64,000 nucleotides of DNA from Dactylosporangium siamense (GTDB taxonomy: Bacteria; Actinomycetota; Actinomycetes; Mycobacteriales; Micromonosporaceae). The stretch covers positions 62,001 through 126,000 of the forward strand of contig NZ_BONQ01000096.1 of assembly GCF_016862795.1 (NCBI RefSeq). Reading direction: 5' to 3'. Below the pieces are notes generated by a model that searched no databases, had not been told where the DNA came from, and saw only the letters and a program-made list of their open reading frames with translations. This document shows, one piece after another, positions 9,422-18,692 of the stretch (position 1 is its first letter; every line of letters begins with the position of its first letter). The position numbers were made by a program, and so were the translations under genes.

Positions 9422-10036
9422 GTGCTCGACTGGCTCACATCCGCCGCCTTCCATGCTTTCGGTGCGCCGACCACGTGGGCGGAACTGCTCGGGTTCGTGA
9501 CCGGCCTCGGCACGGTCTGGCTGGTGGTGCGGCAGCACATCGCGAACTGGCCGGTCGGGATCGCCAACGTGCTGCTGCTCATGGTCGCGTTCCAGCACGT
9601 CGGCCTCTACGGCGACGCCTGGCTGCAGGTCGTCTACGTGATCCTCGGCGCCTACGGCTGGTGGCGCTGGCGGCCCGGGGCGACCACGGAGGTCCGCCGC
9701 ACGACCCGGGTCGAGTGGGGCGCGCTCGCCGCGGCCGGCGTGGTGCTTACCGTGGCGCTGTGGTGGTACCTGGACCGGTTCACCGGCTCCACCGTGCCGT
9801 GGCCGGACGCCGCGACCACCGCCGTCTCGCTGCTCGCCACCTACGGCCAGACCCGCCGCCTGGTCGAGAGCTGGTGGCTGTGGATCGCCGTCGACGTCGT
9901 GTACGTGCCGCTGTACGGGTACAAGGACCTGTGGCTCACCGCGGTGCTGTACCTCGCCTTCCTCGGCCTGTGCGTGCTGGGCCTGCGGGCCTGGCGGCAG
10001 GCGCTGACGGCGCGGCGGCTCGCGGTGCCGGTGTGA
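9422..10036 (+). CDS. pnuC: PnuC-family nicotinamide riboside transporter
   Basis: Membrane carrier for nicotinamide riboside, which is trapped after phosphorylation by a partner kinase. The 204-residue protein has about seven hydrophobic helices and PnuC-like sequences such as NWPVGIANVLLL near residue 41, GYGWW-type YGWWRW near residue 78 and a C-terminal VYVPLYGYKDLWLTAVLY. The GTG at 9422 is supported by GAGG six bases upstream. Its stop overlaps the GTG of the next gene in GTGA, indicating translational coupling with the NadR-like kinase and adenylyltransferase, its expected metabolic partner. Confidence 0.92.
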   Translation: MLDWLTSAAFHAFGAPTTWAELLGFVTGLGTVWLVVRQHIANWPVGIANVLLLMVAFQHVGLYGDAWLQVVYVILGAYGWWRWRPGATTEVRRTTRVEWGALAAAGVVLTVALWWYLDRFTGSTVPWPDAATTAVSLLATYGQTRRLVESWWLWIAVDVVYVPLYGYKDLWLTAVLYLAFLGLCVLGLRAWRQALTARRLAVPV

Positions 10037-11130
10037 CGCACGGCCTCGTCGTCGGCAAGTTCTACCCGCCGCACGCCGGACACCACCACCTCATCGACAC
10101 CGCCGCCCGCGCCTGCGAGCGGGTCACCGTCGTCGTCGCGCCGTCCAGCGCCGAGTCCATCCCCCTCGAAGTCCGGCTCGACTGGTTGCGCGAGGTGCAC
10201 GCGGCGAGCCCGCACGTGCGGTTCGCCGGCGTGTACTGCGACCTGCCCATCGACTACGACGACCCCGACATCTGGCAGGCGCACTACGAGGTCTTCCGCG
10301 GCGCGGTCGGTCCCGCGACGGTGGATGTGGTCTTCTCCTCCGAGGCGTACGGCGACGAGCTCGCCCGGCGCTTCGACGCCCGGCACGTGGCGGTCGACCC
10401 TCCCCGGGCCGGGGTGCCGGTCTCCGGGACGGCGATCCGCGCGGATCCCGTGGCCAACTGGGCGTTCCTGGCCCCGCCGGTGCGCGCCTGGCTGGCCCGC
10501 CGGGTGGTCGTCGTCGGCGCCGAGTCGACCGGCACCACCACCCTGGCCCGGGCCCTCGCCGCCCAGCTCCGGCTGCGCGGCGGGGCCTTCGCGGGCACGC
10601 GGTGGGTGCCCGAGTACGGCCGGACCCTCACCGAGCTGAAGATGGCCGGCGGGGTGAAGGTCGAGGACCTCGTCTGGGACCGGGACGACTTCCTGACCGT
10701 CGTGCGCGAGCAGAATGCCGCCGAGGACGCCGCCGCCCGGGCCGGCGGGCCGCTGCTGATCTGCGACACCGACGCGTTCGCCACCGCGATCTGGGAGGAG
10801 CGCTACCTGGGTTCCGCCTCGCCGCGGGTCCGCGCCGCCGCCCGCGAACCGGCCCTGTACCTGCTGACCGCGGACGACGGCGTGCCGTTCGAGGACGACG
10901 GGATGCGCGATGGCGAGCACCTGCGCGGCTGGATGACCGGCCGCTTCCGGGCCGAGCTCGCCGCCGGGCGGGTGCCGTGGCTCGAGCTGACCGGGACGTA
11001 CCGCAACAGGCTACGCACCGCGCTCGCGGCCTGCGACGAGTTGCTCGCGCGGGGCTGGTCCTTCGCGGCGCCGCAGTTGCCGCGCCGGCCGCCGGATCGG
11101 GCGCCGGGAATTGTCGGTGGGTCCTGTTAG
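10033..11130 (+). CDS. nadR: NadR-like NMN adenylyltransferase / ribosylnicotinamide kinase
   Basis: Predicted bifunctional NAD-salvage enzyme: an N-terminal nucleotidyltransferase makes NAD from NMN and ATP, and a C-terminal kinase phosphorylates nicotinamide riboside imported by PnuC. The 365-residue protein has the nucleotidyltransferase signature GKFYPPHAGHHHLI at residues 8-21 and VSGTAIR near residue 133. The kinase P-loop reads GAESTGTTTLA near residue 160, where threonine stands at the usual lysine position. This variant appears familiar from actinobacterial homologues, but catalytic competence is not certain. No DNA-binding helix-turn-helix is present, unlike E. coli NadR. The final stop TAG is part of the next operon's -10 element. 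Confidence 0.9.
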   Translation: MTHGLVVGKFYPPHAGHHHLIDTAARACERVTVVVAPSSAESIPLEVRLDWLREVHAASPHVRFAGVYCDLPIDYDDPDIWQAHYEVFRGAVGPATVDVVFSSEAYGDELARRFDARHVAVDPPRAGVPVSGTAIRADPVANWAFLAPPVRAWLARRVVVVGAESTGTTTLARALAAQLRLRGGAFAGTRWVPEYGRTLTELKMAGGVKVEDLVWDRDDFLTVVREQNAAEDAAARAGGPLLICDTDAFATAIWEERYLGSASPRVRAAAREPALYLLTADDGVPFEDDGMRDGEHLRGWMTGRFRAELAAGRVPWLELTGTYRNRLRTALAACDELLARGWSFAAPQLPRRPPDRAPGIVGGSC

Positions 11131-11133
11131 GGT
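11111..11133 (+). promoter_or_regulatory. PafBC/RecA-NDp-type promoter of the STM401x cluster
   Basis: TTGTCGGTG (11111-11119), eight bases, then TAGGGT (11128-11133) match TTGTCRGTG-N8-TAN3T at every defined position. The -10 ends seven bases before the ATG at 11141, predicting a leaderless mRNA. The first three bases of the -10 are the nadR stop codon. The motif is established for RecA-independent DNA-damage induction in mycobacteria; activity here is inferred. Confidence 0.75.
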
Positions 11134-11140
11134 CCCGCGC

Positions 11141-12067
11141 ATGAGGCACATCACGACGTTCGCCGGGCTCCCGGTGGTCCAGTTCGAGCCCGGCGTCGTC
11201 GACCGGCTCGACGCGAAGGGCACCCCGCGCAGCGCCGTCGCCTGGCGCATCGAGACGGACTACGAGGCCGACGAGGAGGCGTTCCGGACCGTCCTGGACC
11301 GGTGCCTCGACGTCGTCGGCGGCGAGTCCGTCCAGGCGCTCGTCGTCGGGCAGTGGGGCGAGGCCTATGACACCCCGCCGCCGCTGCACCTGCTCATCGC
11401 CGCCCGCCTGCGGCTGCCGCACCTGCGGGCGCTGTTCCTCGGCGAGATGACCAGCGAGGAGTGCGAGATCTCCTGGATCAACCACACCGACGTGGCGCCG
11501 CTGCTCGCCGCGTTTCCGGGCCTGGAGGTCCTGCGCATCCGCGGCGCCGACGGGCTGCAGCTGTCCCCGGTGCGGCACATGCGGCTGCGGGAGCTGGCGG
11601 TGGAGAGCGGTGGCCTGTCCGCCGGTGTCGTGCGCGGCATCGCCGACTCGCACCTGCCGGCGCTGACCGATCTGGAGCTGTGGCTCGGCGTCAGCCAATA
11701 CGGCGGCGACGTCAGCGTCGAGGACCTGGCGCCGGTGTTCAGTGGCACGGGCGTGCCCCGGCTGCGCCGCCTCGCCCTGCGCAACGCGGAGATCGCCGAC
11801 CAGGTCGCGGCCGCGCTCGCCGGCGCGCCCGTGGTGCCCCGCCTCGAAACGCTCGACCTGTCCCTGGGCATCCTGTCCGACCAGGGCGCCGAGGCGCTGC
11901 TGCTCGGCCAGCCGCTGACCCACCTGCGCCGGCTCGACCTGTCCCACCACTTCATCTCGGCCGAGCTGGCCGACCGGCTCCGGGCCGAGCTGCCCGGCGT
12001 CGACGTCGACCTGTCCGACGAGCAGGAGGAGGACGACGGCGAGCGATACACGGCAGTGTCGGAATGA
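11141..12067 (+). CDS. STM4015 family leucine-rich-repeat protein
   Basis: A 308-residue cytoplasmic protein of the STM4015 family, function unknown. Residues from about 95 onward form irregular leucine-rich repeats (for example LPHLRALFLGE, FPGLEVLRIRG, MRLRELAVESG, LPALTDLELWLG, VPRLRRLALRNA, VPRLETLDLSLG, LTHLRRLDLSHH), suggesting a curved scaffold for protein contact. There is no signal peptide or membrane helix. It is the first gene of five that overlap by one to four bases, so the group is surely one transcript. The ATG at 11141 is fixed by the leaderless promoter. It ends in an acidic tail (EQEEDDGE). Confidence 0.92.
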   Translation: MRHITTFAGLPVVQFEPGVVDRLDAKGTPRSAVAWRIETDYEADEEAFRTVLDRCLDVVGGESVQALVVGQWGEAYDTPPPLHLLIAARLRLPHLRALFLGEMTSEECEISWINHTDVAPLLAAFPGLEVLRIRGADGLQLSPVRHMRLRELAVESGGLSAGVVRGIADSHLPALTDLELWLGVSQYGGDVSVEDLAPVFSGTGVPRLRRLALRNAEIADQVAAALAGAPVVPRLETLDLSLGILSDQGAEALLLGQPLTHLRRLDLSHHFISAELADRLRAELPGVDVDLSDEQEEDDGERYTAVSE

Positions 12068-13458
12068 GCACCGTCACCGTCACCGTCACCGTCGTCGGCG
12101 TTCCCGGCCACCGGCGCGTCCGGCTGTTCCGCGACGCGGCCGTCGCCGCGGGCCTGCCCGAGCCGGCGGTGGTGAGCTGGCGCGACGTGTGCGCCGGCGA
12201 CTTCGACCTGGACGCCGGCGGCACGGGGGACGGACGAGCGTGGGTGCGGCTGGAGTCGCCCGGCGAGGACGCGGAGATCGACCGGCTGCTGCGCGGTGCC
12301 GCCGTGCCCGCCGCGCACGGTGAGATCGTCGGGCTCGCCGCCTGGCACCGCGGTCTCGTCGCCGCGGCCCGCCGGGTCGAGGCGCGCGGGGTGCCGCTGC
12401 TGACCGCGGTGGACGAGCTCGACGTGATGTTCGACAAGCGTCGCTGCCACGCCCTGCTGCGGTCCCGGGGTGTGGCGGTGCCCGAGGCGTTCGCCGCGGG
12501 CGGCTACGAGGAGATCCGCGACCGGGGCCGGGAGCAGGGCTGGCGCAGGGTGTTCGTCAAACCGCCGCACGGGTCGTCGGCGTCGGGGGTCGTGGCCCTC
12601 GCGTTCGGCGGCGAGCGCGGCGGCGGGCGGGTCAGTGCCTACACCTCCGCGGTGCTCGACGGCGACCGGCTCTACAACGAGCTGCGGGTGCGCCACCACA
12701 CCGACGAGCGGACCGTCGCCACGATCATCGACCGGCTCGCGGCCGAGAGCAGGGTCCTGCCCGCCGTGAGCGGCGCCCTGCCCGCCGAGCGCGGCGCCCT
12801 GCACGTGGAGCGCGGCGTGCTGCCGGCCGTGAGCGGCATCCTGCCCGCCGAGCGTGGCGGCCTGCCGGCCGTGAGCGGCGCCCTGCACGTGGAGCGCGGT
12901 GCCCTGCCCGCCGTGAACGGCGCCCTGCACGTGGAGCGCGGCGTGCTGCCGGCCGTGAGCGGCGCCCTGCCCGTGGAGCGTGGCGTCCTGCCCGCCGAGC
13001 GCGGCGCCCTGCACGTGGAGCGCTGGCTGCCGAAGGCGTCCCACGACGGGCTCACCTTCGACCTGCGGGTGCTCGTCGTCGCCGGGCGGGTCAGCCACGT
13101 CGTCGTGCGCACCGGCCGGTCCCCGATGACCAACCTGCACCTCGGCAACGCCCGCGGTGACCTGGCCGGCGTCCGCGCCGCCGTGGGCGAGGAGCACTGG
13201 GCCGCCGCGATGCGCACCTGCGAGGCCGCCGCCGCGTGCTTCCCCGGCAGCCTGCACGCCGGCGTGGACCTGATGTTCGCCCGCGACCACCGCACACACG
13301 CGGTCGCCGAGGTCAACGCGTTCGGCGACCTGCTGCCGGGCCTGCTCGCCGGTGGGCACGACACGTACGCCGCGGAGATCGACGCGCTGCTGACCGGCCG
13401 GTTCCGCGCCGCTGAGCCCGCCGCTGATCACACAGCCGCCGTGGTCGCCGCCCGGTGA
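12064..13458 (+). CDS. STM4014 family protein, ATP-grasp-like, with heptapeptide array
   Basis: A 464-residue protein of the STM4014 family, related to ATP-grasp ligases; substrate unknown. The ATP-grasp region is suggested by FDKRRCHALL near residue 123, RVFVKPPHGSSASGVVAL near residue 163, and a C-terminal block with DLMFARDHRTHAVAEVNAFGD carrying likely metal ligands (D, E, N). Between the two halves, residues 232-322 are 13 tandem heptads of type L-(P/H)-(A/V)-(V/E)-(S/R)-G-x; the last is the native LHVERWL. The start also has a four-fold ACCGTC repeat (12070-12093). ATG overlaps the upstream stop in ATGA. Confidence 0.9.
   Translation: MSTVTVTVTVVGVPGHRRVRLFRDAAVAAGLPEPAVVSWRDVCAGDFDLDAGGTGDGRAWVRLESPGEDAEIDRLLRGAAVPAAHGEIVGLAAWHRGLVAAARRVEARGVPLLTAVDELDVMFDKRRCHALLRSRGVAVPEAFAAGGYEEIRDRGREQGWRRVFVKPPHGSSASGVVALAFGGERGGGRVSAYTSAVLDGDRLYNELRVRHHTDERTVATIIDRLAAESRVLPAVSGALPAERGALHVERGVLPAVSGILPAERGGLPAVSGALHVERGALPAVNGALHVERGVLPAVSGALPVERGVLPAERGALHVERWLPKASHDGLTFDLRVLVVAGRVSHVVVRTGRSPMTNLHLGNARGDLAGVRAAVGEEHWAAAMRTCEAAAACFPGSLHAGVDLMFARDHRTHAVAEVNAFGDLLPGLLAGGHDTYAAEIDALLTGRFRAAEPAADHTAAVVAAR
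12757..13029 (+). repeat. Coding minisatellite of 13 x 21 bp in the STM4014 gene
   Basis: Thirteen in-frame 21-bp units encode heptads such as LPAVSGA, LPAERGA and LHVERGV. Unit boundaries fall every 21 bases from 12757 to 13029. Three unit types alternate irregularly, which suggests repeated slippage and recombination from an original LHVERWL-encoding segment. The reading frame is kept throughout. Confidence 0.96.
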
Positions 13459-14261
13459 AGGCGCTCATCGGCAGCCACGACCTGCTCTTCGTCACGCTCG
13501 ACACGCTGCGCCACGACGTCGCCGCCGCGCAGCTCGCGGCGGGGCGCACCCCCAACCTCGCGAGGGTGCTGCCCGGCGGGGCGTGGCAGCGGCGGCACAC
13601 GCCGGCGTCGTTCACGTATGCGGCGCACCACGCGTTCTTCGGTGGGTTCCTGCCCACGCCGGTGACGCCGGGCCCGCACGAGCGGCCGTTCGCGGCCAGG
13701 TTCCCGGGCAGCACCAGCGTCGGCGGGGACACCTGGGAGTTCGACGCGGCCGACGTCGTCACCGGGCTGCGCGCCGCCGGGTACCACACGATCTGCATCG
13801 GCGGGGTCGGCTTCTTCGCGATGACCAGCGCGCAGGGCGGGGTGCTGCCGGCGCTGTTCGACGAGGCGCACTGGACCCGCGACTTCGGCGTCACCAACCC
13901 GTCCTGCTTCGAGGCGCAGCTCGACCGGCTCACCACCGTGCTGCGCGAGGAGAAGGACGGGGACGGCCCGCTGTTCACGTTCGTCAACGTCGCCGCCATG
14001 CACCAGCCCAACCGGCACTACCTGCCCGGCGCCGGCGAGGACAGCCTGGCGTCGCACGGCGCCGCGCTGGCGTATGTCGACCGGCACCTGCCGGTGCTGT
14101 TCGGGCTCGTCACGTCCCGTGGCCGGCCCTGCCATGTGATCATGTGCAGCGACCACGGCACCGCCTACGGCGAGGACGGGCACACCGGGCACCGTTTCGC
14201 GCACGAGGTGGTGTGGACCGTGCCGTATGCCGAGTTCACGCTCGAACCGGGGGAGTGGTGA
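13455..14261 (+). CDS. STM4013/SEN3800 family hydrolase (alkaline phosphatase superfamily)
   Basis: A 268-residue protein of the STM4013 family, related to metal-dependent alkaline-phosphatase or sulfatase-type hydrolases. The metal site is suggested by the N-terminal FVTLDTLRHD (residues 12-21, with Asp and Thr in nucleophile position) and the C-terminal MCSDHGTAYGEDGHTGHRFAHE, which holds the Asp-His pair and a further His. It has no signal peptide, so it likely acts in the cytoplasm. The substrate is unknown. GTG at 13455 overlaps the STM4014 stop in GTGA. Its stop is followed at once by the start of the radical SAM gene. Confidence 0.92.
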   Translation: MKALIGSHDLLFVTLDTLRHDVAAAQLAAGRTPNLARVLPGGAWQRRHTPASFTYAAHHAFFGGFLPTPVTPGPHERPFAARFPGSTSVGGDTWEFDAADVVTGLRAAGYHTICIGGVGFFAMTSAQGGVLPALFDEAHWTRDFGVTNPSCFEAQLDRLTTVLREEKDGDGPLFTFVNVAAMHQPNRHYLPGAGEDSLASHGAALAYVDRHLPVLFGLVTSRGRPCHVIMCSDHGTAYGEDGHTGHRFAHEVVWTVPYAEFTLEPGEW

Positions 14262-15571
14262 TGCTCGGTTCCCCGTATCAGGGCTACCTGTATGCGTATC
14301 CGCACAAGACCGCGTACCGGCCGCTGCGGCCCCGGCCGAGGCTCGCCGACGTGTGGGCGGCGGAGCCGACCGGGGCGCTGTTCCTCTACGTCCACGTGCC
14401 GTTCTGCGAGATGCGGTGCGGGTTCTGCAACCTCTTCACCCGCGCGCTGCCGCCCGCCGCGCAGGTCACCGCCTACCTCGACCAGCTGGGGCGGCAGGCG
14501 GAGCGGGTCGCGGCCGCGGTGCCCGCCGCGTCCTACGCCCGGGCCGCGGTCGGCGGCGGCACCCCGACGTATCTGACCGCGGCGGAGCTGACCCGGCTCT
14601 TCGACATCGTCGAACGGGCCACCGGCGCGGACCTGCGGGCCGTGCCGATGTCGGTGGAGACGTCACCGGCGACGGCGACCGCCGACCGGCTCGCGGTCCT
14701 GGTCGAGCGCGGCACGACCCGGGTCAGCATCGGCGTGCAGAGCTTCCTCGACGCCGAGGCGCACGCCGCCGGCCGGCCGCAGCACCGTGCCGAGGTCGAC
14801 CGGGCCCTGGACACGATCCGCGCCGCCGGCCCGGTCGAGCTGAACATCGACCTCATCTACGGCATCCCCGGCCAGACCGCCGAGACCTGGACGAGCTCGC
14901 TGCGGACCGCCCTGACCTGGCGGCCCGAGGAGCTGTACCTGTATCCGCTCTACGTGCGCCCGATGACCGGCCTCGGCCGGCGGGCGCCCGGCGCGCACGA
15001 CCCCGAGTGGGACGCGCAACGGCTCGGGCTCTACCGGCATGCCGTGGACCTGCTCGCCGACGCGGGCTACGAGCAGCAGTCGATGCGTGCGTTCCGGCGG
15101 CGGGACGCGCCACCGCCGGACGACGCCGGAGACCCCGGCTACTGCTGCCAGGACGACGGGATGGTCGGGCTCGGGTGCGGGGCCAGGTCGTACACGTCGT
15201 CGTTGCACTACTCGTTCGACTACGCGGTGAGCGTCCGGCAGGTGCGCGGCATCCTCGACGACTATCTCGCGCGGCCGGCGGAGGACTTCGACGTCGCCGA
15301 GGTCGGGTTCGTGCTCGACGGCACCGAGCAGCGCCGCCGCTGGCTGCTCAAGTCGCTGCTGCGGGCGTCGGGGGTCGTGCCCGGCGACTACCTGGCGCGG
15401 TTCGGCACCACCGTCGACGACGACTTCCCGGCGCTGCGCCGGCTCCGCGAGAGCGGCCACCTCGACGGGCACCGGCTCACCGCCGAGGGGCTCGCGCACT
15501 CCGACGCGATCGGGCCGTGGCTCACCTCCGCCGGCGTCCGCGCCGCCATGGCCGGGCACGTGCCGCGATGA
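14261..15571 (+). CDS. STM4012 family radical SAM protein (HemN-like)
   Basis: A 436-residue radical SAM enzyme of the STM4012 family. The [4Fe-4S] motif is CEMRCGFC (CX3CX2C) near residue 49, preceded by YVHVPF, as in HemN/HemW-like proteins. GGGTPTYL near residue 102 is the SAM-binding glycine region, and SIGVQSF and ELNIDLIYGIPGQT are also HemN-like. The C-terminus has the winged-helix-like region typical of the HemN superfamily. The reaction is unknown; anaerobic coproporphyrinogen oxidation is unlikely in this setting. ATG at 14261 shares one base with the previous stop (TGATG); an in-frame GTG at 14258 is the alternative. Confidence 0.93.
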   Translation: MLGSPYQGYLYAYPHKTAYRPLRPRPRLADVWAAEPTGALFLYVHVPFCEMRCGFCNLFTRALPPAAQVTAYLDQLGRQAERVAAAVPAASYARAAVGGGTPTYLTAAELTRLFDIVERATGADLRAVPMSVETSPATATADRLAVLVERGTTRVSIGVQSFLDAEAHAAGRPQHRAEVDRALDTIRAAGPVELNIDLIYGIPGQTAETWTSSLRTALTWRPEELYLYPLYVRPMTGLGRRAPGAHDPEWDAQRLGLYRHAVDLLADAGYEQQSMRAFRRRDAPPPDDAGDPGYCCQDDGMVGLGCGARSYTSSLHYSFDYAVSVRQVRGILDDYLARPAEDFDVAEVGFVLDGTEQRRRWLLKSLLRASGVVPGDYLARFGTTVDDDFPALRRLRESGHLDGHRLTAEGLAHSDAIGPWLTSAGVRAAMAGHVPR

Positions 15572-16467
15572 GGATCCTGTATCGCGGTCCCCTGGCCAGC
15601 TGCAACTACGACTGTGCGTACTGCCCGTTCGCGAAGCGGCGCGATCCGCCCGAGCTGCTGCGCGCCGACCGGGCCGCCCTGGAACGCTTCGTGGCGTGGG
15701 TCGAGGCCCACCCTGAACCGATCGATGCCGAGCCGATCGAGGTGCTGTTCACGCCGTGGGGTGAGGGGCTGACCCGGTCCTGGTACCGGGAGGCGCTCGT
15801 CCGTCTGTCGCACCTGCCGCACGTCGGGCGCGCCGCGATCCAGACCAACCTCGCCGGCCGGCTCGGCTGGGTCGCCGGCGCGGACCCGGGCACCCTCGCG
15901 CTGTGGTGCACGTTCCACCCGGGCCAGGTGAGCCGGGAGCGGTTCCTGCGCCAGGTCGAGATCCTGCACCGGCACGGCATCCGGCACTCGGTCGGCGTGG
16001 TCGGCCTGCCGGAGCACCTCGCCGAGGCGGTCGCGTTGCGCGAGGCGCTGCCCGGCGACGTGTACCTGTGGGTCAACGCCGCCGAGGGCCACACGTACCC
16101 GGCGGAGCAGGAGGCGGCGTGGACGGCGATCGACCCGCTGTTCGGCTACAGCGTGCGGCCGCACGCGTCCCGGGGCCGGTCCTGCCGCACGGGTGACGAG
16201 GTGATCTCGGTCCTCGGTGACGGCACGGTCCGCCGCTGCCACTTCGTGCCGGAGCCGCTCGGCAACCTGTACGACGGGACCTGGCGGCGGACCACGCAAC
16301 CCTGCCCGAAGGGCGAGTGCGACTGTCACATCGGCTACGTGCACCTGCGGACGCTGCCGCTCTACGACGTGTTCGCCGGCGGCGTCCTGGAGCGGGTGCC
16401 GCACGAGCTGCCGCTGTGGTCCGTGCCGCCGGCCGCGCTCAATGCGGCGGACCCGGGGACCGTGTAG
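15568..16467 (+). CDS. STM4011 family radical SAM protein
   Basis: A 299-residue radical SAM enzyme of the STM4011 family. The cluster-binding motif CNYDCAYC (CX3CX2C) is at residues 12-19. Further cysteines near the C-terminus (RSCRTGDE, RRCHFVPEP, QPCPKGECDCHIGY) are arranged like an auxiliary iron-sulfur site. The reaction is unknown. ATG overlaps the STM4012 stop (ATGA). The final 22 codons (PHELPLW to the end) belong to an 85-86-bp unit repeated twice more after the stop, and the stop codon lies in the loop of a terminator-like hairpin. Confidence 0.93.
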   Translation: MRILYRGPLASCNYDCAYCPFAKRRDPPELLRADRAALERFVAWVEAHPEPIDAEPIEVLFTPWGEGLTRSWYREALVRLSHLPHVGRAAIQTNLAGRLGWVAGADPGTLALWCTFHPGQVSRERFLRQVEILHRHGIRHSVGVVGLPEHLAEAVALREALPGDVYLWVNAAEGHTYPAEQEAAWTAIDPLFGYSVRPHASRGRSCRTGDEVISVLGDGTVRRCHFVPEPLGNLYDGTWRRTTQPCPKGECDCHIGYVHLRTLPLYDVFAGGVLERVPHELPLWSVPPAALNAADPGTV

Positions 16468-16652
16468 CCGGCCCCGGGTCGCGGCCGCACGAGCTGCCGC
16501 TGTGGTCGTGCGGTCGGCCGCGCTCACCGCGGCGGACCCGGGGACCGTGTAGCCGGCCCCGGGTTGCGGCCGCACGAGCTGCCGCTGTCCGTGCCGCCGG
16601 TGGTACTCACCGCAGCGGACCCGGGAGCCGTGTAGCCGGCCCCCGGGTCGCG
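16399..16652. repeat. 85-bp tandem triplication of the STM4011 3' end
   Basis: Three copies at 16399-16484, 16485-16569 and 16570-16652. Copy 1 holds the last codons and stop of the radical SAM gene; copies 2 and 3 are downstream and diverged, with frame-changing differences. All keep the ACCCGGG...CCCGGGT inverted repeat and the embedded TAG. Confidence 0.95.
16451..16479 (+). terminator. Hairpin spanning the STM4011 stop codon (first of three copies)
   Basis: ACCCGGGG (16451-16458) pairs with CCCCGGGT (16472-16479) around a 13-base loop that contains the TAG stop. Equivalent hairpins occur at 16536-16564 and, with a seven-base stem, 16619-16648. No T tract follows. It lies between convergent STM4011 and typA. 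Confidence 0.6.
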
Positions 16653-16659
16653 ACGCTGA

Positions 16660-18525
16660 TCAGGCGTGCGCGCGCTTGCGGGCGGAGCGCTCGCGGTCCT
16701 TCTGGTCGAGCATGACCTTGCGGATGCGGACCGCGGTCGGGGTGACCTCGACGCACTCGTCCTCGCGGCAGAACTCGAGGGCCTGCTCCAGGGTGAGCTT
16801 GCGCGGCGGGATCAGCTTCTCCGTCTCGTCGGAGGCGGAGGAGCGCATGTTCGTGAGCTTCTTCTCCTTGGTGATGTTGACGTCCATGTCGTCGGCGCGG
16901 GAGTTCTCGCCGACGATCATGCCCTCGTACACCTCGGTGGTGGGCTCGATGAACATCGAACCGCGCTCCTGCAGGTTCATCATCGCGAACGGGGTCGCGA
17001 CGCCGGCCCGGTCGGCGACGAGGGACCCCGTCGCGCGCATGCGCAGCTCGCCGAACCACGGCTCGTACTTCTCGAAGACGTGGTGCAGGATGCCGGTGCC
17101 GCGGGTGTCGGTGAGGAACTCGGTCCGGAACCCGATCAGGCCACGGGCCGGGACCAGCCACTCCATCCGGATCCAGCCGGTGCCGTGGTTGACCATCTGC
17201 TCCATGCGGCCCTTGCGGGTGGCCAGGAGCTGGGTGATCGCGCCGAGATACTCGTCGGGGGCGTCGATGGTGAGCCGCTCGACCGGCTCGTGCACCTTGC
17301 CGTCGACCTCGCGGGTGACGACCTGCGGCTTGCCGACGGTCAGCTCGTAGCCCTCGCGGCGCATCTGCTCGACGAGGATGGCCAGGGCGAGCTCGCCACG
17401 GCCCTGGACCTCCCAGGTGTCGGGGCGCTCGGTCGGCAGGATCCGCAGCGACACGTTGCCGACCATCTCGCGGTCGAGCCGGTCCTTGACCAGCCGGGCG
17501 GTGACCTTGGTGCCCTTGACCTTGCCGGCCAGGGGCGACTGGTTGGTGCCGATGGTCATCGAGATCGCCGGCTCGTCGACGGTGATCAGGGGCAGCGCGA
17601 TCGGGTTCTCCGCGTCCGCCAGGGTCTCGCCGATCATGATGTCGGGGATGCCGGCGAGCGCGATGATGTCGCCCTGCGCGGCCTCCTCGGCCGGCTTGCG
17701 CTCCAGGCCCTGGGTCATCAGCAGCTCGGAGATGCGCACGTTCTGCACGGTGCCGTCGGTGCGGATCCAGGCGACGGTCTGCCCCTTGCGGATCTTGCCC
17801 TCGCGGACCCGGCACAGCGCGAGGCGGCCGAGGAACGGTGACGCGTCGAGGTTGGTGACGTGCGCCTGCAGCGGCGCGTCCTGGGTGTAGGACGGGGCGG
17901 GGATCGTGTTCAGCAGCGTCTGGAACAGCGGCTGCAGGTTGTCGCTGTCGGCGGGGACGGTGCCGTCCTCCGGCTGGCTCAGCGAGGCGACGCCGTCGCG
18001 GGCGCAGGCGTAGACGATCGGGAACTCGATCTGGTGCTCGTCGGCGTCGAGGTCGAGGAAGAGCTCATACGTCTCGTCGATGACCTCCTTGATCCGGGCG
18101 TCGGGCCGGTCCACCTTGTTGATCACCAGGATGATCGGCAGGCGGGCCTTGAGCGCCTTGCGCAGCACGAACCGGGTCTGCGGCAGCGGGCCCTCGCTGG
18201 CGTCGACGAGGAGGATCACGCCGTCGACCATGGTCAGGCCGCGCTCGACCTCACCGCCGAAGTCCGCGTGGCCGGGCGTGTCGATGATGTTGATCGTGGT
18301 CGGGGTGCCGCCGTCGGCGGGGACGTAGCGCACGGCGGTGTTCTTCGCGAGGATGGTGATGCCCTTCTCGCGCTCGAGGTCCATCGAGTCCATCACCCGG
18401 TCGACCTGCTCCGCGCGCGCGTGGAACGCGCCGCTCTGCCGCAGCATCGCGTCGACAAGGGTGGTCTTGCCGTGGTCGACGTGAGCGACGATGGCGACGT
18501 TGCGGAGGTCTGAACGGGTCTGCAT
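16660..18525 (-). CDS. typA: Translational GTPase TypA/BipA
   Basis: Ribosome-binding GTPase involved in 50S assembly and stress growth. The 621-residue protein has G1 [10 protein letters not shown] near residue 13, switch sequence EREKGITI, G3 [15 protein letters not shown]4 [12 protein letters not shown]-like domains II, III and V, and a lysine/arginine-rich C-terminus ([11 protein letters not shown]). Start choice: ATG at 18525 gives the normal N-terminus [22 protein letters not shown] at 18534 and GTG at 18567 are in frame upstream, and GGAGG falls between the first two. The gene is convergent with the STM401x cluster and divergent from a transglycosylase gene. Confidence 0.96.
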
Positions 18526-18692
18526 GACCTCCATTGTTCCAGGCGGTTCCAGATCGCCGTCACGCACAGTGCGCGATGTGACGTTCCGCGCCCCCGGTCA
18601 TCGTTTTCACCACCGTGCGGCGTCTGAAAGGACAACGGGGGACAGCGGGCGCCGCCCGTCCGCGATAGCGTGCCAGGACGGGGAGGCCATCG

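Follow-up and report, generated by a model that had tools for sequence, protein, structure and literature searches.

What condition induces a widespread, uncharacterised radical S-adenosylmethionine (radical SAM) gene cluster of numerous soil bacteria, and on what might its enzymes act? The question is raised by a 64,000-nt stretch (the window) of the 12.7-Mb genome of Dactylosporangium siamense, in which five genes of the families STM4015 to STM4011, headed by a leucine-rich repeat (LRR) protein, stand directly behind a candidate promoter of the RecA-NDp/PafBC class. The closest named relative by STM4015, among the best 80 of 588 named loci, is Dactylosporangium aurantiacum with 90% identity. 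The reading favoured here, to which we give a probability of roughly 0.6, is that of a damage-inducible PafBC-class operon whose enzymes modify protein tails; transcription start, binding, induction and modification are all inferred.

The promoter and its conservation

A passage of PMC5656591 gives the RecA-NDp consensus as tTGTCRgtg-8 nt-TannnT, and each site was scored by its matches among the 12 defined bases. The element of the window, TTGTCGGTG-N8-TAGGGT, agrees at all 12, as the original prediction had stated, and is the only exact match in the window. Its TGTCG box at 11112-11116 lies at about -28 to -24, its -10 hexamer occupies 11128-11133, and a TG at 11125-11126 forms an extended -10. 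Seven bases separate the last T of the hexamer (11133) from the ATG of STM4015 (11141), the spacing also given in the original prediction, and this placement allows transcription to start before or at the start codon. The ATG is a predicted leaderless start.

The motif was sought at orthologous loci in three sets. A search of 250 genomes of the family Micromonosporaceae found STM4015 above the family cut-off in 94 and yielded 107 loci (106 of the family and one of another family of the order) besides the window; 105 loci with an intact STM4015 start were used (104 of the family), three of the 108 (L080, L120 and L162) being dropped for want of the STM4015 N-terminus. The set of named loci is limited to the top 80 among 588 confirmed ones; counts on 46 of the 80 leave out 34, namely 33 Micromonosporaceae loci overlapping the family set and one metagenome-assembled genome. 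The hold-out comprises 23 of 30 class-level loci, previously unused; these 30 have the highest scores among 56 genomes that passed the cut-off. Within some 150 nt before STM4015, 82 of the 105 family-set loci hold a site scoring 9 of 12 or higher, compared with 1/105 on the reverse strand and 99/2100 shuffles; 73 of the 80 named loci do so too.

The most strongly conserved portion, a core GTCR-N8-TGnTA, joins the box near -26 to the extended -10. It precedes STM4015 at 91/105 family-set loci (17 of 18 genera), at 44/46 named loci of other families (7 of 7 genera) and at 22/23 hold-out loci, where the reverse strand gives 0/23; the controls for the two former sets are 0/151 on the reverse strand and 6/3020 shuffles. 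The core is found at none of 367 starts of STM4014, STM4013, STM4012 and STM4011, and before one of 20 second STM4015 copies. It accompanies loci with enzyme genes (90/98) and rarely a lone STM4015 (1/7; Fisher p 1.2e-5). When gapped 4-mer pairs were counted upstream of STM4015 in the family set, GTCG-N8-TGCT and GTCG-N9-GCTA ranked first, in 12 of 18 genera; before the other cluster genes, where the stretches are coding, different pairs recur in 14-18 genera, which is usual for coding DNA. The original prediction had staked itself on a search before STM4015 orthologues, and there the motif is present. It is among the most constant features of the orthologous clusters across Actinomycetes.

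By the published consensus the hold-out is less sharply divided, with 19/23 loci reaching 9/12 and 12/23 doing so on the reverse strand; reverse-strand matches are similar at the named loci (22/46). These high counts are taken to come largely from a divergent partner gene, a source that was read at the named loci, where a few matches, e.g., in Actinomadura, were unassigned to the partner. In Streptomyces and Kitasatospora, a gene for a small protein (YRQGD...GEVTGHAH...QREY) is divergently oriented to STM4015. The site upstream of this gene scores 12/12 in 15 of 29 divergent loci, 10/12 in 13 and 9/12 in one. Where the YRQGD gene is present in Micromonosporaceae, it lies downstream of the cluster, usually with a TGTCGTACC-type site. 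At 49 downstream loci, some of them from other families, a replaced GTG keeps most scores at 8 or 9, and a few loci show no TGTCGTACC-type site. YRQGD homologues and DUF6745 also flank the cluster in Deinococcus and Methylobacterium records. In Actinomadura (L220 and L272), the STM4015 promoter was seen by eye to lie within an inverted repeat whose arms differ between species yet stay complementary.

Counts at genome level, with the reversed motif as control, give 7 exact matches vs. 0 in the D. siamense genome, 49 vs. 12 when up to one mismatch is allowed, and 27 vs. 1 exact sites in 11 genomes (this one and ten relatives). A coding-like start lies 6-8 nt past the -10 at 15 of the 27 exact sites, compared with 47 of 2160 random positions under the same criterion. 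The genes after the exact sites of this and the related genomes include dnaX, polA, ligA, tag and a SRAP gene, as well as a DUF222/HNH gene (L172), two genes resembling it (L180, L182), a WGR protein and a DUF4132 protein that heads an operon (L174/L344). Ordinary genes also occur, among them serine hydroxymethyltransferase, ispH and a glyoxalase-like gene; such genes were read at L166, L175 and L204, of which L204 is an ispH site with one mismatch, and L170 was assigned by resemblance. Among the 42 one-mismatch sites of the D. siamense genome, the surroundings of 18, picked for an intact box and TA, were read. Genes that follow one-mismatch sites in this and the related genomes include dinB, a UvrD/PcrA-type helicase, the yloV-recG operon and relA. 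The genome carries PafB-/PafC-type genes: two adjacent genes that follow a Pup-ligase family gene (L350) have WYL/WCX and HTH_PafC domains. Motif sites also precede a group of large proteins judged alike by eye (VPxSWxRxIxPRRGG), in this genome (L327, L328, L336, L339) and in two others (L344 of G051, L345 of G004); the L344 copy belongs to DUF4132 and is the first gene of an operon that also encodes a MoxR-like ATPase and DUF5682.

The promoter thus resembles the mycobacterial RecA-NDp/PafBC promoters in its 12 defined bases, spacing and non-palindromic layout, and in the repair genes at the other exact sites; it departs from them in that STM4015 promoters add a near-fixed extended -10 and that the hexamer in Streptomyces mostly ends in C. 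Membership of this class is very probable. PMC5087735 also describes RecA-NDp at recA and SCO6735 of Streptomyces coelicolor.

The proposed course of events is as follows. The genes STM4015-4014-4013-4012-4011 would form one operon with a RecA-NDp/PafBC-class sigma-A promoter, and its leaderless mRNA would begin at or beside the STM4015 ATG. Under DNA damage, PafBC would be switched on by single-stranded DNA; bound to the TGTCR box near -26, it would then bring in RNA polymerase by sigma adaptation, a mode of action of PafBC known from mycobacteria. The cluster would then be a LexA-independent damage-inducible operon in Actinomycetes. Its induction by damage through PafBC is probable, at a lower degree of confidence than the class of the promoter itself.

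Several results weigh against this account of the promoter. The TGn part of the core was picked after inspecting the loci, and only the hold-out, which consists of best-scoring loci of the same class, is unaffected by that choice. The core is missing at 14/105 loci, eight of which have enzyme genes (g17: three; g41: all three; g4: two), and at all eight STM4015 genes outside Actinomycetota, one of which scores 9/12. The final consensus T is mostly missing in Streptomyces, where the usual hexamer is TAGAAC or TACAAC. In the D. siamense genome, recA itself scores just 9/12, with box and TA in register; one-mismatch sites stand only fourfold above the control, and several of the 18 that were read precede no gene or genes without an evident repair link. 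The cluster is present but no exact site exists in G009, G016 and G079, three of the ten relatives searched. TGn occurs at only two of the 27 exact sites, both of STM4015; the STM4015 promoters are therefore atypical, and an activator may be dispensable for them.

Enzymes and conserved protein tails

The AlphaFold2 model of STM4015 is an LRR solenoid with a mean predicted local distance difference test score (pLDDT) of 91.7, and its best solved match is 2ra8 of Bacteroides fragilis, with a template modelling score of 0.77 by query length. The C-terminal tail falls below a pLDDT of 50 at residues 299-301 and 306-308; tails are of low confidence in both models made, the other being that of the YRQGD protein, whose modelled fold has no structure match at E 0.001 or better. 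The STM4015 tail follows the consensus RYxAVxE. Among 248 distinct copies, Glu is last in 245, Val stands at -3 in 236 and Tyr or Phe at -6 in 242. Glu is also terminal in ten copies from Deinococcus, Methylobacterium, Paenibacillus, Calothrix, Salmonella and Bacteroides. Tandem arrays reach up to seven copies, and at loci with at least two copies 107 of 108 end in Glu. At two Actinomadura loci (L240, L272) with seven tandem STM4015 genes the tails differ. Fixed ends are likewise found at the actinobacterial loci in the YRQGD protein, which ends in VAD in 92/92 distinct sequences, and in DUF6745, which ends in Thr in 80/81. The C-terminal ends of STM4014, STM4013 and STM4011 are variable.

STM4014 shows weak profile matches to LysX and RimK structures and to other ATP-grasp enzymes. 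It contains an in-frame minisatellite (window ~12742-13031, units of 21/42 bp) that adds repeats just before the conserved HVERWLPKA stretch and is not present in the seven non-actinobacterial homologues aligned. In a profile search of solved structures, STM4013 matched NPP and sulfatases; the residues D16, T54, D233, H234, H246 and H250 are invariant in seven aligned sequences. STM4012 matched HemN (1olt) and NocN (9p2u). The sole match of STM4011 was SkfB (6efn, E 8.9e-5), in the C-terminal part, and eight Cys are invariant in eight aligned sequences: C12, C16 and C19 of the CX3CX2C motif and the five further residues C206, C224, C246, C251 and C253. Activation of a sulfatase by an anSME-like pair (STM4013 as the sulfatase-like, STM4011 as the SPASM-like member) was considered and set aside because the presumed nucleophile position of STM4013 is an invariant Thr.

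If the enzymes act on protein tails, the LRR protein STM4015 would offer its flexible, Glu-terminated C-terminal tail. STM4014, the RimK-like ligase, would work on a carboxylate of this tail, the two radical SAM enzymes (SPASM-like STM4011 and HemN-like STM4012) would alter it, and the phosphodiesterase-like hydrolase STM4013 would process it. The YRQGD protein and DUF6745, also fixed-tailed, may be further substrates. Tail modification is a tentative proposal, based on family resemblance and tail conservation. The original prediction had pointed to DNA damage, nucleotide or stress metabolism; nucleotide or stress metabolism gained no particular support, and the protein evidence points to the tails.

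Weighing the alternatives

The motif overlaps the last codons of the window's nadR-like gene (stop TAG 11128-11130), as might befit a chance product of nadR 3' coding sequence in a GC-rich genome. This explanation is very improbable: a chance match is rejected because the motif is conserved before STM4015 in other genera, and nadR neighbours the cluster at only five Dactylosporangium genomes and one other locus. The element could otherwise be mainly a constitutive sigma-A extended -10 promoter, or serve another WYL-type or unrelated regulator, with PafBC at most of minor importance. The TGn that is near-fixed at STM4015 promoters and missing from the other 25 of 27 exact sites would suit such a promoter, and PMC10693628 describes SiwR, another WYL regulator, which responds to genotoxic stress in mycobacteria; an initial motif search in PMC9380542 suggested that the mycobacterial PafBC motif is not conserved in Streptomyces venezuelae. 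On the other hand, the SiwR site is an imperfect palindrome according to PMC10693628, and the window element is not palindromic. The 12 defined bases are matched without exception both in the window and at 15 of the 29 divergent partner promoters, and exact motif sites precede repair genes. A constitutive or otherwise regulated promoter is a rather unlikely alternative to PafBC control.

The tails of STM4015, the YRQGD protein and DUF6745 could instead be docking or degradation signals or assembly contacts, the enzymes acting on a small molecule, a nucleic acid or another substrate. LRR proteins commonly bind partners, and the fusion of a WGR domain to the LRR protein in Bacteroides could point to nucleic-acid binding. 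Two results that weigh against tail modification fit here as well. The enzyme STM4012 ends in Arg or Lys in 141/145, and because its end is also fixed, a fixed last residue alone is no mark of a substrate; and no peptidase, transporter or exporter is found among the five genes, to which that search was limited. Tail modification is further weakened by tails that differ outside Actinomycetota (VLD, VQD and VTD in the YRQGD protein, VEA, VET and IEA in DUF6745). What speaks against mere docking is that the profile search with STM4011 gave a single solved relative, SkfB, which modifies a peptide, and that the ATP-grasp of STM4014 is closest, if weakly, to LysX and RimK, which act on protein carboxylates. 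Tails that serve as signals or contacts are about as credible as modified tails, each falling somewhat short of even odds. Anti-phage defence was also tried as an explanation; no known PADLOC system matched, the partial matches being STM4012 residues 112-231 to the candidate model PDC-M51A (29 bits) and DUF6745 to Cas12f (18 bits), with none for the other eight proteins scanned.

Gene order, neighbours and known systems

The original prediction of five overlapping genes holds: all five proteins exceed the NCBIfam cut-offs of their families, and the overlaps between successive genes are 4, 4, 1 and 4 nt (Table 1). The span of 11111-16467 then assigned to the cluster is correct at its end; position 11111 belongs to the motif and to the TTG of a longer open frame, the gene starting at the ATG.

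Table 1. Promoter, genes and tail codons of the STM4015-4011 locus, in window coordinates.
Feature	Position	Strand	Basis
RecA-NDp/PafBC-type promoter (probable), TTGTCGGTG-N8-TAGGGT	11111..11133	+	exact 12/12 match; kept before orthologous clusters
STM4015 family leucine-rich repeat protein	11141..12067	+	NF038076, 365 bits, cut-off 275
STM4015 codons for conserved C-terminal tail RYTAVSE	12044..12064	+	terminal Glu conservation; low pLDDT
STM4014 family ATP-grasp (RimK/LysX-like) protein	12064..13458	+	NF038074, 377 bits, cut-off 175
STM4013/SEN3800 family hydrolase, sulfatase/phosphodiesterase type	13455..14261	+	NF038075, 380 bits, cut-off 250
STM4012 family HemN-like radical SAM protein (CX3CX2C)	14261..15571	+	NF006067, 601 bits, cut-off 380
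STM4011 family radical SAM protein (CX3CX2C)	15568..16467	+	NF038073, 379 bits, cut-off 200
Upstream nadR-like gene, start approximate	10030..11130	+	TIGR01526 (below its cut-off) and AAA_28 matches

The complete order 4015-4014-4013-4012-4011 is found at 89 of 108 actinobacterial loci, 69 with one STM4015 and 20 with two or three, and again in the Deinococcus, Methylobacterium, Paenibacillus and Salmonella records read. The Bacteroides record differs, with STM4012 and STM4013 unannotated and a WGR domain in STM4015; there, on a Bacteroides finegoldii plasmid (L324), the WGR domain is N-terminal, and STM4011 is annotated as longer, its C-terminal part resembling a HAD hydrolase. One lone STM4015 (L165, genome G173) lies below the family cut-off, is the sole match in its genome, and has neither the promoter core nor the terminal Glu.

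The nadR-like gene is outside the conserved cluster, judging by the loci compared, and a shared role with NAD salvage (nadR/pnuC) was rejected because this neighbour is not conserved. Beyond the stop codon of STM4011, imperfect duplications of its 3' end were seen by eye (window 16467-16650), followed by a convergent typA-like gene (16660-18567). A typA-like gene also lies near the cluster in a Salmonella plasmid (L323); elsewhere among the searched loci it is a neighbour in only two other Dactylosporangium genomes and one Virgisporangium locus.

The enzyme types, together with a conserved, apparently flexible C-terminal peptide, recall systems of ribosomally synthesised and post-translationally modified peptides (with SPASM radical SAM enzymes such as SkfB, HemN-like radical SAM methyltransferases such as NocN, and ATP-grasp ligases). 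Unlike in these, the putative precursor STM4015 is a folded LRR protein of ~300 residues with a near-constant tail, and none of the five genes encodes a peptidase or exporter. Motif sites of this class also stand before the DUF4132/MoxR/DUF5682 operons and WGR proteins of Dactylosporangium genomes and G051; their genes differ from those of the STM40xx cluster, and only regulation and the WGR/LRR theme are shared. PMC8533742 reports that DUF4132 and WGR proteins of Deinococcus radiodurans rise on DdrO depletion and mentions MolR as LexA-regulated.

A functional description of the NCBIfam families STM4011-STM4015 (NF038073-NF038076, NF006067) was looked for and none was found. In the passages found of the open-access literature, STM40xx names are table entries only, and in the same literature no description of a link between the cluster and PafBC/RecA-NDp was found, in line with the original prediction, which knew of none. 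It is possible, though doubtful in its full extent, that the locus represents an undescribed damage-induced protein-modification system under PafBC control across Actinomycetes. In such a system, the two radical SAM enzymes, the RimK-like ligase and the phosphodiesterase-like hydrolase would turn the STM4015 core RYxAVxE into either a modified tail or a cofactor that is released, the YRQGD protein and DUF6745 being additional partners with tails of their own.

PMC9380542 leaves open the question of whether Streptomyces has a RecA/LexA-independent damage response. The STM4015 and partner promoters of Streptomyces, which carry the motif (exact in 15 of the 29 divergent Streptomyces/Kitasatospora loci), bear on this question. 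The protein tails of STM4015, the YRQGD protein and DUF6745 are named here as concrete objects for examination. In general, a widespread uncharacterised radical SAM cluster gains a likely inducing condition, and its substrate and product therefore become testable.

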